Shown: in pieces, positions 33,672-38,022 of the stretch
Position numbering within the stretch: the stretch's first letter is position 1
How the letters are laid out: each line of letters opens with the position of its first letter
Source of the DNA: Paracoccus hibiscisoli
GTDB taxonomy: Bacteria; Pseudomonadota; Alphaproteobacteria; Rhodobacterales; Rhodobacteraceae
Length of the DNA: 64,000 nt
Reading direction: 5' to 3'
NCBI RefSeq assembly: GCF_005048265.1
Contig: NZ_SUNH01000009.1
Location: forward strand, 1-64,000
Program-made: the position numbers and the translations under genes
The notes under the pieces: model-generated
Told to the model about the DNA's origin: nothing
Database searches by the model: none
Seen by the model: the letters and a program-made list of their open reading frames with translations, nothing else

Positions 33672-34223
33672 TCAACGCGGTCCGCGTTTGGCAAGAATAC
33701 GCTGCAGCGTGCGACGGTGCATATGTAATCTGCGGGCCGTTTCACTGACATTCCGCTCGCATTGTTCATAAAGGCGTTGAATATGTTCCCACCGGACCCG
33801 ATCGGCCGACATCGGGTTTTCCGGCGGCGGGGGCAGCAATTCTCCGCTGGACAGCAATGCCGAGGTCACGTCATTCGCATCGGCGGGTTTTGCCAGATAA
33901 TCCGTGGCGCCCATCTTGACCGCGGCGACCGCGGTGGCGATCGCGCCATAACCGGTCAGGACGATGATGCGGGCATCGGCGCGCTTGTCGCGCAGGGCCT
34001 CGACCACGTCCAGCCCGTTGCCGTCCTCCAGCCGCAGATCGACCACGGCATAGGCTGGCGCCCGCTTTTCGATCAGGCGCATCGCGCCCGCCACCGTCAG
34101 CGAAGTTTCGGTCTGAAACCCACGCTTTTCCATGGCCCGCGCCAGACGGGTGACGAAGATCTCGTCGTCATCGACCAGCAGCAGCGAGGCGTCCGGGCCG
34201 ATTTGTGCGTTCAACTGATCCAT
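33672..34223 (-). CDS. regA: redox response regulator RegA (PrrA/ActR)
   Basis: A 183-residue two-domain regulator. The receiver domain has acidic pocket LLLVDDDEIF, phospho-acceptor D62 in YAVVDLRLEDGNG and switch Lys in DYLAKPADAND. A proline hinge (LLPPPPENP) leads to a Fis-type HTH ending NVSETARRLHMHRRTLQRIL, nearly invariant in RegA proteins. In relatives it controls respiration, CO2 and N2 fixation and terminal oxidases in response to quinone redox state. AAAAGGGC precedes the ATG. Its kinase RegB is encoded divergently beyond senC. Confidence 0.96.
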   Translation of the reverse strand: MDQLNAQIGPDASLLLVDDDEIFVTRLARAMEKRGFQTETSLTVAGAMRLIEKRAPAYAVVDLRLEDGNGLDVVEALRDKRADARIIVLTGYGAIATAVAAVKMGATDYLAKPADANDVTSALLSSGELLPPPPENPMSADRVRWEHIQRLYEQCERNVSETARRLHMHRRTLQRILAKRGPR

Positions 34224-34299: not shown

Positions 34300-34929
34300 T
34301 TAGGCAGAGGCGTCCACATAACAGGCGACGGTTTCGGCAATCTGTTCGGACGGCGTTTCGCGCGAAAAGAATTCGACCGTCTGCCCACCCGGCATGACCA
34401 GATAGGTATTGGTCATGTGATCGACCAGATAATATTCCTGGTCCTCCTCGTCATGGGCCTTGTAGTAATTGCGCCAGCCGCGATTGACGGCGGCAATCTC
34501 CTCATCGGTGCCGGTCAGCCCGATCATCCGGTCGGAAAACAGCGCCGTGTAATCTGCCAGAATCTCGGGCGTGTCGCGGCGTGGATCGACGGTGATGAAA
34601 ACGGTCTGCACATCCTTGCCATCCTCGACCAGCAGCGCCTCGGCATCGGCATTGCGGGCGGCGTCCAGCGGGCAGACATCGGGGCAGAAGGTATAGCCGA
34701 AATAAAGCAGCGTCGGCTTGTCAAAGACCTGCGCGTCGGTCACCCGCTGGCCGTCGTCGCGCGTCAGGGTAAAATCGGTGCCAAAGGCGCCCATGCCGCC
34801 GGCCACCGCGCTGCTGCTGCATTGCGCGAACGGGTCGCCCCCCGGCCGCATGGTCAGATACAGCGCGCCGCCCGCCAGGATGCCGATGGCGGCGGCCGTC
34901 CCGATCATCAGGATTTTCCGGTCGGTCAT
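34300..34929 (-). CDS. senC: SCO1/SenC copper chaperone
   Basis: A 209-residue protein anchored by one N-terminal helix (about 6-26) with a periplasmic thioredoxin-fold domain. Copper ligands: C82 and C86 in GYTFCPDVCPLD, and H170 in YYLVDHMTNTY. SCO proteins deliver copper to the CuA or CuB centre of cytochrome oxidases. In Rhodobacter, SenC/PrrC also influences signalling by RegB. The stop codon is within a short palindrome CTGCC-TTA-GGCAG. It is divergent from regB with 69 bases between the starts. Confidence 0.93.
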   Translation of the reverse strand: MTDRKILMIGTAAAIGILAGGALYLTMRPGGDPFAQCSSSAVAGGMGAFGTDFTLTRDDGQRVTDAQVFDKPTLLYFGYTFCPDVCPLDAARNADAEALLVEDGKDVQTVFITVDPRRDTPEILADYTALFSDRMIGLTGTDEEIAAVNRGWRNYYKAHDEEDQEYYLVDHMTNTYLVMPGGQTVEFFSRETPSEQIAETVACYVDASA

Positions 34930-34960
34930 GGGCGGCTCCTTCGCGTGTCAAATGCCCGCA

Positions 34961-34989
34961 TTGATCGCGCATGGCGGGGCGGGTATCAA
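34961..34989 (+). promoter_or_regulatory. candidate regB promoter
   Basis: TTGATC (34961-34966), 17-base spacer, TATCAA (34984-34989). If used, transcription would begin at or just before the ATG at 34999, giving an almost leaderless mRNA, or would favour the second ATG at 35020 (AGGGG upstream). It also forms an imperfect dyad (TTGAT...ATCAA), too widely spaced for an FNR box. Confidence 0.4.
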
Positions 34990-34998
34990 GGTTGGGCA

Positions 34999-36357
34999 AT
35001 GTCGCAGCAGGGGCCGCCGATGTCCACATCCTACGCCCCCGACGGTCTGGCCGCGATGGCCGGGCCGATGGACACACCCAAGGCCGAACCGATCCGCATG
35101 CGCACGCTGGTGCTGCTGCGCTGGTTCGCGATCGGCGGGCAGATGGCCGCCGTGATCGTGGCCTGGATGATGGGTATCGGCTTTCTGAAGACGCCGATCA
35201 TCCTGCTGATCGCGGCCTCGATCACCATGAACCTGTGGCTGTTCCTGCGCCCGCCCAAGCGGACCTCGCCCGGACGCGCGGTGCGGCAGCTGTCCTTTGA
35301 CCTGGTGCAGATCTCGACGCTGATGGCGCTGACGGGGGGGATGGCCAATCCCTTTGCGCTCTTGGTGCTGGCGCCGGTGACCATCGCGGCGGCCTCGCTG
35401 AACGGGCGGCAGGTGCTGGCCTTGGGGCTGGCGACGGTGGCGCTGATCTCGGTCGCGGCGGTCTTCGGCGTGCCCCTGCGCGCCCCCGACGGAGAGATCC
35501 TGCGGATGGAGCCGATCCTGGCCCTGGGCCATTGGGTCGCGCTGGTCATCGGGGTGGTGTTCTTTGCGGGCTATGCCCATCGCGTCACGGCCGAACTGTC
35601 CGATACCTCGGGCGCGCTGTTCGCGACCCAGATGGCCCTGTCGCGCGAACAGCGGCTGCAGCATCTGGGCGGCGTCGTCGCGGCCGCCGCGCATGAGATG
35701 GGCACCCCCCTGGCCACCATCAAGCTGATCGCCGGAGAGCTGGCGGACGAATTGCGCGACCGCCCCGACCTGCATGCCGACGCCATCGCACTGCGCGACA
35801 GCGCCGACCGCTGCGCCGCGATCCTGCGCAGCATGGGGCGCGCGGGCAAGGACGACCTGCACATGCGCGCGGCCCCCCTTCGCGCCGTGCTGGAGGACGC
35901 CGCCAGCCCCCATGCCGATCGCGGCCCCTTGATCGAGATCCATGCCGAGGGCCCGGTGATCCACCGCGACCCGGCCATCATCCATGCGCTGCGCAACCTG
36001 ATCCAGAACGCCGTCGATTTCGCCGAAAGCCGCGTGGTGATCGAGACCCAGGTCACCCAGGGCACGCTGGTCGTGACGGTGCGCGACGACGGGCCGGGCT
36101 ATCCGCCGCATCTGCTGTCGCGGATCGGCGACCCCTATCTGACCCGGCGCGCCGAGGCGCAGCGCGGCAGCTATGAGGGGATGGGCCTGGGCCTGTTCAT
36201 CGCCAAGACGCTGCTGGAGCGGTCGGGCGCGCGGCTGACCTTTGCCAATGGCGGGCCGGGGGCGATGGTGTCGGTGCGCTGGCCGCTGGACCGTATCCGC
36301 GCGCAGGACCGTATGGCCCTGGCGCATAACCCCACCTTTGGAACAGGGCTGTCTTAA
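34999..36357 (+). CDS. regB: redox sensor histidine kinase RegB (PrrB/ActS)
   Basis: A 452-residue membrane kinase with six predicted helices (about 35-205). The ubiquinone-binding heptapeptide GGMANPF (113-119) matches the invariant GGxxNPF of RegB. The H-box is AAAAHEMGTPLATIK with phosphorylated H232. The redox-switch cysteine is C272 in DRCAAILRSMGRAGK. ATP-binding boxes follow: NLIQNAVDFA, VRDDGPGYP and MGLGLFIAKTLLERSG. All signalling residues are present. AAGG lies 7 bases before the ATG; a second start at 35020 is possible. Confidence 0.95.
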   Translation: MSQQGPPMSTSYAPDGLAAMAGPMDTPKAEPIRMRTLVLLRWFAIGGQMAAVIVAWMMGIGFLKTPIILLIAASITMNLWLFLRPPKRTSPGRAVRQLSFDLVQISTLMALTGGMANPFALLVLAPVTIAAASLNGRQVLALGLATVALISVAAVFGVPLRAPDGEILRMEPILALGHWVALVIGVVFFAGYAHRVTAELSDTSGALFATQMALSREQRLQHLGGVVAAAAHEMGTPLATIKLIAGELADELRDRPDLHADAIALRDSADRCAAILRSMGRAGKDDLHMRAAPLRAVLEDAASPHADRGPLIEIHAEGPVIHRDPAIIHALRNLIQNAVDFAESRVVIETQVTQGTLVVTVRDDGPGYPPHLLSRIGDPYLTRRAEAQRGSYEGMGLGLFIAKTLLERSGARLTFANGGPGAMVSVRWPLDRIRAQDRMALAHNPTFGTGLS

Positions 36358-36386
36358 CACCTTGTTAAGCAGGTTCGGTCTATGCT
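36354..36386 (+). promoter_or_regulatory. CtrA-type box TTAA-N7-TTAA over the -35 region of the PAS gene
   Basis: TTAA (36354-36357), CACCTTG, TTAA (36365-36368), embedded in a perfect inverted repeat CTTAACA-CCT-TGTTAAG. The spacing of seven is that of the full CtrA consensus. TATGCT at 36381-36386 is a fair -10 word, which places the -35 position at about 36358-36363, inside the box, as in CtrA-activated promoters. The box overlaps the regB stop codon and is 46 bases before the GTG of the next gene. Confidence 0.6.
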
Positions 36387-36414
36387 CCGGTGGAACTGAA
36401 AGGGGACATCGGCG

Positions 36415-38022
36415 GTGGACATTCAGGGTGCGGGCTTGGTGGCGATGGCGGTCCTGTGCGGGACGGCCTCGGTTCTGCTGGCGGTGGCGGTGATCCGGCT
36501 CTGGGACCGGCGCCAGCCGGGGCAGGGGCGGTCGTCGCGTCCGGGCCATGCGCTGGACGGTCAGGTCCAGCCGATGGTGTTCCTGTTCCGCGGCCCGCAG
36601 CTGGTCGATGCGACCCCGCCCGCGCGGGGCCTGCTGGACCGGATCGGCGCGCCCGACGACGACTGGATGCGGCTGATGCGCTGGATCGGGCCGCGCTTTC
36701 CCGACGCGCCCGACCGGCTGGCGCTGCTGTCGCGCTTGGGCCGGGTCGAATTGGTGGGCCAGCAGGGCCAGGGCAGCGCGACCCTGCGCCTTGTGGCCGA
36801 GGATCTGGGCGACCGTCTGTGGCGCCTGACGCTGACCGACCCGGGCGCCGAACATGCCGGGATCGTGGTCGATTCGATGTCGCTCCAGGCCATGGAGGAG
36901 GAGCTGGACCTGCTGCGCGGCGCGCTGGACCAGACGCCGATGCTGGTCTGGCGGCTGGATGCGCAGGACCGGGTGACCTGGGCCAATGCCGCCTATCTGC
37001 GCCGGGCCGAGGCGCGGGCCGAGGGGGCGCTTGGATGGCCGCTGCCGCGCCTGCTGGACGCGCCCAAGCCGGGGCTGGGCGTCTCGGCCCGCCGCGCAGC
37101 GCTGGAGGATCAGGGGGTCGTGTCCTGGTACGACTGCCACAGCCACGCCATGGGCGATCAGGTGATGATGTTCGCCCTGCCCGCCGATGCGGCGGTGCGG
37201 GCCGAACGAAGCCTGCGCGATTTCGTCCAGACCCTGACCAAGACATTCGCCGACCTGCCCATCGGCCTGGCGATCTTTGACCAGCGCCGCAACCTGCAGC
37301 TGTTCAACCCGGCCCTGATCGACCTGACGAACCTGCCCATCGGGTTCCTGACCGCGCGCCCGTCGTTGTTCGATTTCCTGGATCAGCTGCGCGAACAGCG
37401 CATGGTCCCCGAGCCCAAGGACTATCGCAGCTGGCGCCAGCACATGGCCAATCTGGAAAGCGCCGCCGCGACCGGCCACCATGTCGAGACCTGGTCCCTG
37501 CCCGGCGGCCAGACCTATCGCGTGACGGGCCGCCCCCATCCCGATGGCGCCGTGGCCTTCCTGTTCGAGAACATCACCACCGAAATGTCCCTGACCCGCA
37601 AGTTCCGGGCCGAGCTGCTGCTGGGCGCGCATGTGCTGGACGGGCTGGACGACGCGCTGGCGGTCTTTGCCGCGACCGGGCAACTGGTCCTGTCCAACAA
37701 TGCCTATCGTCGGCTGTGGGGTGCCGCGCCCGCAACGCTGGCCGATGCGCTGACCACATGGGAGGTGGCGGCGCCGCATGGCCCCGGCTTTACCGCGCTG
37801 CGCGAGGCACTGCAGGCGCCCGACCCGGCGCCGCATGCCGGTGCCATGGCCGGGCCGCAGGGACAGCTGCTGGGCTGGACGGTCACGGCGCTGTCGGGCG
37901 GGCGCCAGATGCTGCGGTTCCGCATGGCCTCGGGTCAGCCGATGACCTCGGTCCAGGCCATCTCTCCGCCGGACGAGCTGGCGGCGCTGCGGATGCTGCC
38001 CAATGCGATGGGCGCGGACTGA
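36415..38022 (+). CDS. PAS-domain membrane protein lacking a kinase domain
   Basis: A 535-residue protein starting at GTG with AAAGGGG upstream. One N-terminal transmembrane helix (about 8-27) is followed by three PAS-like segments: about 165-260 (LDQTPMLVWRLDAQDRVTWA), about 285-390 (FADLPIGLAIFDQRRNLQLF) and about 400-500 (LDGLDDALAVFAATGQLVLS). Between them are coiled linkers. No histidine box, ATPase domain, GGDEF or EAL is present, so it is a sensor or scaffold without output. The arrangement recalls DivL-like or pseudokinase sensors with the kinase part lost. A CtrA-type box precedes it, and regB ends just upstream. Confidence 0.8.
   Translation: MDIQGAGLVAMAVLCGTASVLLAVAVIRLWDRRQPGQGRSSRPGHALDGQVQPMVFLFRGPQLVDATPPARGLLDRIGAPDDDWMRLMRWIGPRFPDAPDRLALLSRLGRVELVGQQGQGSATLRLVAEDLGDRLWRLTLTDPGAEHAGIVVDSMSLQAMEEELDLLRGALDQTPMLVWRLDAQDRVTWANAAYLRRAEARAEGALGWPLPRLLDAPKPGLGVSARRAALEDQGVVSWYDCHSHAMGDQVMMFALPADAAVRAERSLRDFVQTLTKTFADLPIGLAIFDQRRNLQLFNPALIDLTNLPIGFLTARPSLFDFLDQLREQRMVPEPKDYRSWRQHMANLESAAATGHHVETWSLPGGQTYRVTGRPHPDGAVAFLFENITTEMSLTRKFRAELLLGAHVLDGLDDALAVFAATGQLVLSNNAYRRLWGAAPATLADALTTWEVAAPHGPGFTALREALQAPDPAPHAGAMAGPQGQLLGWTVTALSGGRQMLRFRMASGQPMTSVQAISPPDELAALRMLPNAMGAD

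Follow-up and report, generated by a model that had tools for sequence, protein, structure and literature searches.

A conserved CtrA-type box precedes a short, probable divL gene beside regB in Paracoccus hibiscisoli and points to a known CtrA-CckA-DivL feedback circuit

Regulation of divL by CtrA in the Rhodobacterales has been described from several directions (PMC2877005, PMC4046655, PMC9430884, and PMC9143464). Brilli et al. in 2010 distinguished a Rhodobacterales "cluster B," in which DivL lacks a kinase domain and DivK, DivJ, and PleC are missing, and predicted that CtrA controls both cckA and divL (PMC2877005); the word Paracoccus does not occur in the main text of that paper. In D. 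shibae, the putative divL is Dshi_3433, which is annotated as a "hypothetical protein," was called weakly conserved, and matches Caulobacter DivL at 34% identity across 46% of the query; its promoter carries a predicted CtrA site, and its expression is down in ctrA, cckA, and chpT mutants (PMC4046655). In R. capsulatus, the PAS protein encoded by rcc00042 promotes CckA kinase activity and the production of gene transfer agents (GTAs) (PMC9143464, citing Westbye 2018), and loss of CtrA affects a set of genes that includes rcc00042 (PMC4158056).

The naming of these genes needs some care. R. capsulatus divL is rcc00042 (PMC6473078; PMC9143464). Two genes of D. shibae have been named DivL, namely, Dshi_3433 with two PAS domains and Dshi_3346 with PAS, kinase, and receiver domains, and one sentence of the same paper equates Dshi_3346 with R. 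capsulatus divL (PMC6473078). Several Rhodobacterales hold two divL paralogues (PMC8116508).

Here, we analyzed a stretch of 64,000 nucleotides of P. hibiscisoli (positions 1 to 64,000 of contig NZ_SUNH01000009.1, forward strand), hereafter the window, in which an unnamed gene encoding a PAS-only protein lies directly downstream of regB (Table 1). An earlier note, made from the sequence without database searches, had pointed to a TTAA-N7-TTAA box over the -35 position of this gene and had suggested that a link between the redox Reg locus and the CtrA network through its product would be new. The regB assignment is supported by one model in Table 1 and scores 527 bits, under the cut-off of 570, with the narrower RegB model NF045988; the open reading frame between regA and regB we take, from its position and sequence, to be senC/Sco-like.

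Table 1. Features of the regA-to-divL region, in window coordinates
Feature	Coordinates	Strand	Basis
regA, response regulator	33672..34223	-	NF033791, 306 bits (cut-off, 250)
senC/Sco-like gene (presumed) between regA and regB	34300..34929	-	ORF
regB, redox sensor histidine kinase, upstream neighbor	34999..36357	+	NF033792, 496 bits (cut-off, 350)
CtrA-type box TTAA-N7-TTAA, TTAACACCTTGTTAA	36354..36368	+	Exact match; conserved in orthologue loci
Putative -35 position, between the two TTAA half-sites	36358..36363	+	17-nt spacer to the -10-like element
-10-like element TATGCT (TAnnnT, offset 27 from box start)	36381..36386	+	Preferred offset in orthologues
divL, probable short form, 535 aa, GTG start, helix and PAS folds	36415..38022	+	ORF, Pfam, AlphaFold, homology

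The PAS-only gene most likely starts at the GTG given in Table 1, and its product is almost certainly the short, kinase-less DivL of the Rhodobacterales. The architecture first proposed for it, a membrane helix without a kinase, agrees with what we found: the AlphaFold model (mean pLDDT, 84.1; pTM, 0.46, so that the arrangement of the domains is uncertain) begins with a helix at residues 3 to 33, PAS_7, PAS_8, and PAS_4 are the only Pfam families above cut-off, and no kinase domain (DHp/HATPase) is present in the model or found by Pfam. The PAS-like segments, previously counted as three, number four in the model, where the secondary structure places PAS folds at about residues 54 to 141, 177 to 256, 283 to 386, and 414 to 504. 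The top matches of a fold search, DosP, PpsR, and FixL, are general PAS proteins and thus name the fold and not the function, and a sequence search of solved structures returned just two weak matches (E values of 0.068 and 0.15). The nearest named relatives among the best 80 of 96 are from Paracoccus, with the P. marcusii protein 83% identical over residues 1 to 535. The short form is the usual one: 179 of the 182 orthologues measured are 450 to 599 aa long, the others being two longer proteins (631 and 633 aa) and a 186-aa fragment.

More distant relatives connect this protein to the long DivL pseudokinases. Residues 78 to 502 align with a protein of Sinorhizobium sp. K101 (26% identity over 462 columns; E value of 2e-30) which, like a relative in Shinella sp. 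PSBB067 that also comes from the plasmid collection, continues into HisKA and HATPase_c domains. In both rhizobial proteins, a Tyr replaces the phospho-acceptor His, within the motif HVSYELRSP at residue 626 in Sinorhizobium (inside the HisKA match at 620 to 687) and within the same motif at residue 639 in Shinella (inside the HisKA match at 633 to 700). A Tyr at the position of the phospho-acceptor His is the mark of DivL, and Caulobacter DivL carries it. The long DivL of Rhizobiales and Caulobacter has a tandem PAS region homologous to the window protein, followed by HisKA with Tyr and HATPase_c, whereas the window protein has neither of these domains.

Correspondence to the genes studied in other Rhodobacterales can be argued from several details. 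R. capsulatus regA is rcc00045 (PMC5359404), three locus tags from rcc00042, which fits the order regA-senC-regB-divL of the window. Published qPCR primers for rcc00042 fit one orthologue locus best, with 3 mismatches in 41 bases and a start-to-start distance of 82 nt that is common to 10 of the 15 best loci. Two probe primers for rcc00042 do not fit the orthologues (at least 5 mismatches of 25), and in searches of 394 genomes and of 1 genome, the published rcc00042 divL primers had no exact match. Orthology of the window gene to rcc00042 is thus suggested indirectly, by locus numbering and primer fit rather than by the full rcc00042 sequence. The window protein also matches Dshi_3433 in architecture, as compared with the published description of that protein rather than its sequence. 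In the P. hibiscisoli genome, a separate PAS_7 protein is encoded by a 710-codon frame at C21:77503-80030; this frame has a further match to the CckA model, in its kinase part, and is followed by a gene for an OmpR/CtrA-like regulator. It may be an example of what has been named a second divL in some papers.

The box itself, TTAACACCTTGTTAA, is exact, begins 61 nt upstream of GTG 36415, and is the sole match in the window at one mismatch or fewer (chance expectation, 0.18); the base 3' of its second TTAA is G, not C. In the earlier note, a plausible promoter had been placed 30 bases downstream of the regB coding end. The box and the regB stop codon in fact overlap, the TAA at 36355-36357 falling inside the first TTAA, and it is the -10-like TATGCT that lies 24 to 29 nt past the stop. 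Taken singly, such a match is little proof, because the 12 perfect TTAA-N7-TTAA boxes in the 3.96-Mb genome are only twice as many as the 6 matches to a reversed control pattern. What lifts the box above chance is its conservation across orthologue loci.

To define those loci, we gathered orthologues of the PAS protein from 60 of 61 genus genomes, from 136 of 149 family genomes (148 genera), and from the best 80 of 96 titled loci, leaving out 14 of the 136 family genomes (the 13 lowest scoring and one with the gene near a contig edge) and 1 of the 60 genus genomes (contig edge). The resulting 219 loci were reduced to 188 by removing those with identical upstream and start sequence. A regB gene with at least 46.9% identity lies upstream of the divL orthologue in 180 of the 188, on the same strand, and for these 180 loci, we scanned 160 bases around the regB stop. 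Being related by descent, the loci are not independent events, but many genera are represented among them.

The box is clearly present upstream of most orthologues, as the proposal of a CtrA site implied: 157 of the 180 loci have a perfect TTAA-N7-TTAA and 15 have one mismatch, with two, three, and four mismatches in 4, 2, and 2 loci, respectively. Among the same loci, other spacings from 0 to 15 gave 0 to 4 perfect matches; with the spacing held at 7, five alternative AT-rich 4-mers yielded 0 to 10. Simple shuffles of the 180 regions contained a mean of 0.25 perfect boxes, and 0.087 would be expected at the density of the P. hibiscisoli genome. Of the 76 regB loci of the family sample, which holds close to one genome for each genus, 68 were perfect and 5 had one mismatch; for the 104 genus and titled loci, the corresponding figures were 89 and 10. 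In 40 lower-scoring additional loci, scanned over a slightly wider stretch (three of them by start, no regB having been found), 30 had a perfect box. Exceptions comprise the 8 of 180 loci with two or more mismatches and the 10 of 40 additional loci with no perfect box. The regB stop had been misplaced in both four-mismatch loci, L177 and L193; on recheck, the box was found in L177 and not in L193. The matched coding sequence of the orthologues, 270,924 bases in all, contained no perfect box. We also considered loci that lack an upstream regB. All four with more than 1.4 kb of upstream sequence (L051, L129, L130, and L186) have a perfect box; of the remaining four, upstream sequence is lacking in three (L201, L206, and L211), and the 178 nt available in L080 contain no box. 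By its pattern of conservation, the box looks like a real and widely conserved CtrA binding site.

Position relative to the flanking genes assigns the box to one of them. With orthologue start codons picked by alignment to the window start, the distance from box end to divL start codon has a median of 46 nt, the value in the window, and a 10th-to-90th percentile range of 38 to 53 nt (standard deviation [SD], 9), and no more than 190 nt separate the regB stop from the expected start, except in L193 (597 nt). The distance from regB stop to box start is looser, at 3 to 48 nt (10th to 90th percentile; SD, 20). Because the spacing to the divL start is tighter and the four loci without regB keep the box, we conclude that it belongs to the PAS gene and not to regB. 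These observations bear on another explanation, that the match arose by chance in this GC-rich genome or that the 3' end of regB is conserved for reasons of its own. The modest excess of perfect boxes over the genomic control and the overlap with the regB stop codon would suit such an account, which is nevertheless contradicted by the 157 perfect boxes among 180 loci, by the spacing, and by the boxes that persist without regB; its probability is negligible, and a chance origin was rejected on conservation across the orthologue loci.

Alignment of the 157 perfect boxes gives the consensus TTAACc-N5-TTAAcc, a direct repeat. A second element is visible downstream, where offset 27 from the box start is T or A in 141 of 157 loci and offset 28 is A in 119. 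A strict TAnnnT starts at offset 27 in 52 of the 157, compared with 8 of 157 at the next-best offset; in the remaining 105 loci, the strict motif is missing from offset 27. In the window, this element is TATGCT, and given a 17-nt spacer, the -35 hexamer would fall between the two TTAA half-sites, which is the usual location for an activating CtrA operator. The placement of the box over the putative -35 position is borne out, with the -35 set by spacing from a -10 at the preferred offset. A generic scan detected no sigma-70 consensus promoter at the site upstream of divL, and CtrA promoters need not fit the generic sigma-70 pattern.

An operator that overlaps a -35 could serve either sign of control, and CtrA might thus block a housekeeping promoter and exert negative feedback on divL. 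The evidence makes this improbable: D. shibae divL goes down, not up, in ctrA, cckA, and chpT mutants (PMC4046655), in R. capsulatus, the co-expression module that includes rcc00042 is reduced in a ctrA mutant (PMC4158056), and the sigma-70 consensus promoter that would be blocked did not appear in the generic scan.

The window copy of the box also lies in a perfect 7-bp inverted repeat, with arms CTTAACA and TGTTAAG spanning 36353-36369, to which the earlier note had drawn attention. The repeat is there, as described, but it is not the part that is conserved. Arms of at least 7 bp occur in 14 of the 157 orthologue boxes, and 72 of the 157 have just the 4-bp minimum that is inherent to paired TTAA sequences. 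Since arm length ranges from 4 to 8 bp across the orthologue boxes, we rejected the inverted repeat as the functional unit; judged on these alignments, symmetry in the window copy is incidental. A promoter of some other regulator, in which a dimeric repressor or a factor of the Fnr type uses the repeat as its operator, could be proposed from this symmetry and from the suggestion that FnrL binds adjacent to divL in R. capsulatus (PMC7232146). Against it stand the arm lengths, the direct-repeat form of the consensus, and the absence of the Fnr-type box TTGA-N6-TCAA from all 180 regions, and such a regulator is very unlikely.

For CtrA, the components of the relay are largely identifiable in the same genome. 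CtrA is encoded (NF045991, 404.9 bits; cut-off, 350), as is ChpT (84.6 bits; cut-off, 22.9), and the best CckA match scores 518.9 bits, below the cut-off of 1,000 of a Brucella model. The cckA-like gene has a perfect box (C13:127285-127299) 49 nt before the start of the 705-codon frame that holds this match, with the same -10 spacing as the divL promoter; among the 12 perfect boxes of the genome, considered in either orientation, these are the only two with TAnnnT at offset 27. At ctrA, a one-mismatch box starts 71 nt before the MRIL start, and the 3,330 bases of the chpT locus contain no box with one mismatch or fewer.

Together, we read the box as a CtrA operator of the divL promoter, acting in positive feedback through DivL and CckA and through the promoter of the cckA-like gene, and we give this reading a probability of about 0.9. 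Phosphorylated CtrA would bind over the -35 region, at both TTAA half-sites, and recruit RNA polymerase to the TATGCT -10; the short PAS-only DivL so produced would raise CckA kinase activity and, with it, phosphorylation of CtrA. With a cckA-like promoter of the same layout, the divL promoter would close a positive feedback loop. We infer the operation of the same circuit in this Paracoccus, activation as its direction, and the transcription start; that phosphorylated CtrA activates divL from this box is the most likely interpretation of the conserved sequence.

The expectation that a CtrA connection through this protein would be new does not hold, because divL had been placed in the CtrA network before, with CtrA control predicted in 2010 (PMC2877005) and support from D. 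shibae (PMC4046655). As a kinase-less DivL under predicted CtrA control, with feedback in the relay, the window locus resembles cluster B (PMC2877005) and shows no difference of substance from it; to that description, the present analysis adds a Paracoccus locus, a count across the family, and the spacing of the -10. Given this prior publication, the finding is one more example of a circuit already described: the CtrA box upstream of divL is the known feedback loop in another Paracoccus. A literature search for divL together with CtrA binding in Paracoccus found no reports. An apparently new regulatory link thereby resolves to the published CtrA-CckA-DivL feedback, with the unnamed PAS protein beside regB as its DivL. 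Added in quantitative terms are a box that most of the sampled family retains and one preferred -10 spacing, together with the same layout at a cckA-like gene and the persistence of divL beside regB.

The abundance of divL transcript may not always set the output of the relay. In an R. capsulatus sqrR mutant under one condition, divL, cckA, chpT, and ctrA transcripts were flat while GTA genes were up, which indicates that the level of divL is not always the controlling step; this flat result contrasts with an earlier R. capsulatus data set in which divL was up 9-fold (PMC9143464).

A connection between Reg and CtrA through the PAS gene had also been envisaged. It stands insofar as regB adjoins the promoter, and the direct tie is one of adjacency; its novelty is unsupported, a RegA-CtrA regulon connection in R. 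capsulatus being in print (PMC7232146). In the same species, loss of CtrA relay genes left regA and regB unchanged (PMC7232146). Among papers retrieved for divL with regB/CtrA, senC, or prrB and judged by title, we found no report of the regB-divL adjacency. A scan of the window identified no terminator-like site between regB and divL. One could imagine read-through from regB providing basal DivL that the CtrA promoter amplifies, with the DivL PAS domains sensing redox state or gas so that respiration sets CtrA output; we regard this as a speculative and rather unlikely extension. The neighborhood makes redox control of the CtrA relay, and with it of motility and gene transfer agents, easily testable by way of regB-divL co-transcription. 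A 962-codon open frame on the minus strand (window 34948-37836), antisense to regB and divL, probably arises as an artefact of codon use in GC-rich DNA.

Genes beside the other perfect boxes of the genome were named in part, with ten proteins examined and seven assigned to a Pfam family. One box (C22:109917-109931) precedes a gene whose product has a BrnA antitoxin domain and may be due to chance, and another (C57:172871-172885) lies at the 3' end of a ZapA-type cell division gene on the opposite strand. A third (C68:117606-117620) is located between a gene with DFP and Flavoprotein domains and a Mg-chelatase/ComM-type gene; comEC, comM, and comF of D. shibae are described as CtrA regulated (PMC6473078). 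A fourth box (C34:150103-150117) lies about 65 nt before the gene for a protein with Glyco_hydro_108 and peptidoglycan-binding domains, possibly a gene transfer agent lysis enzyme.
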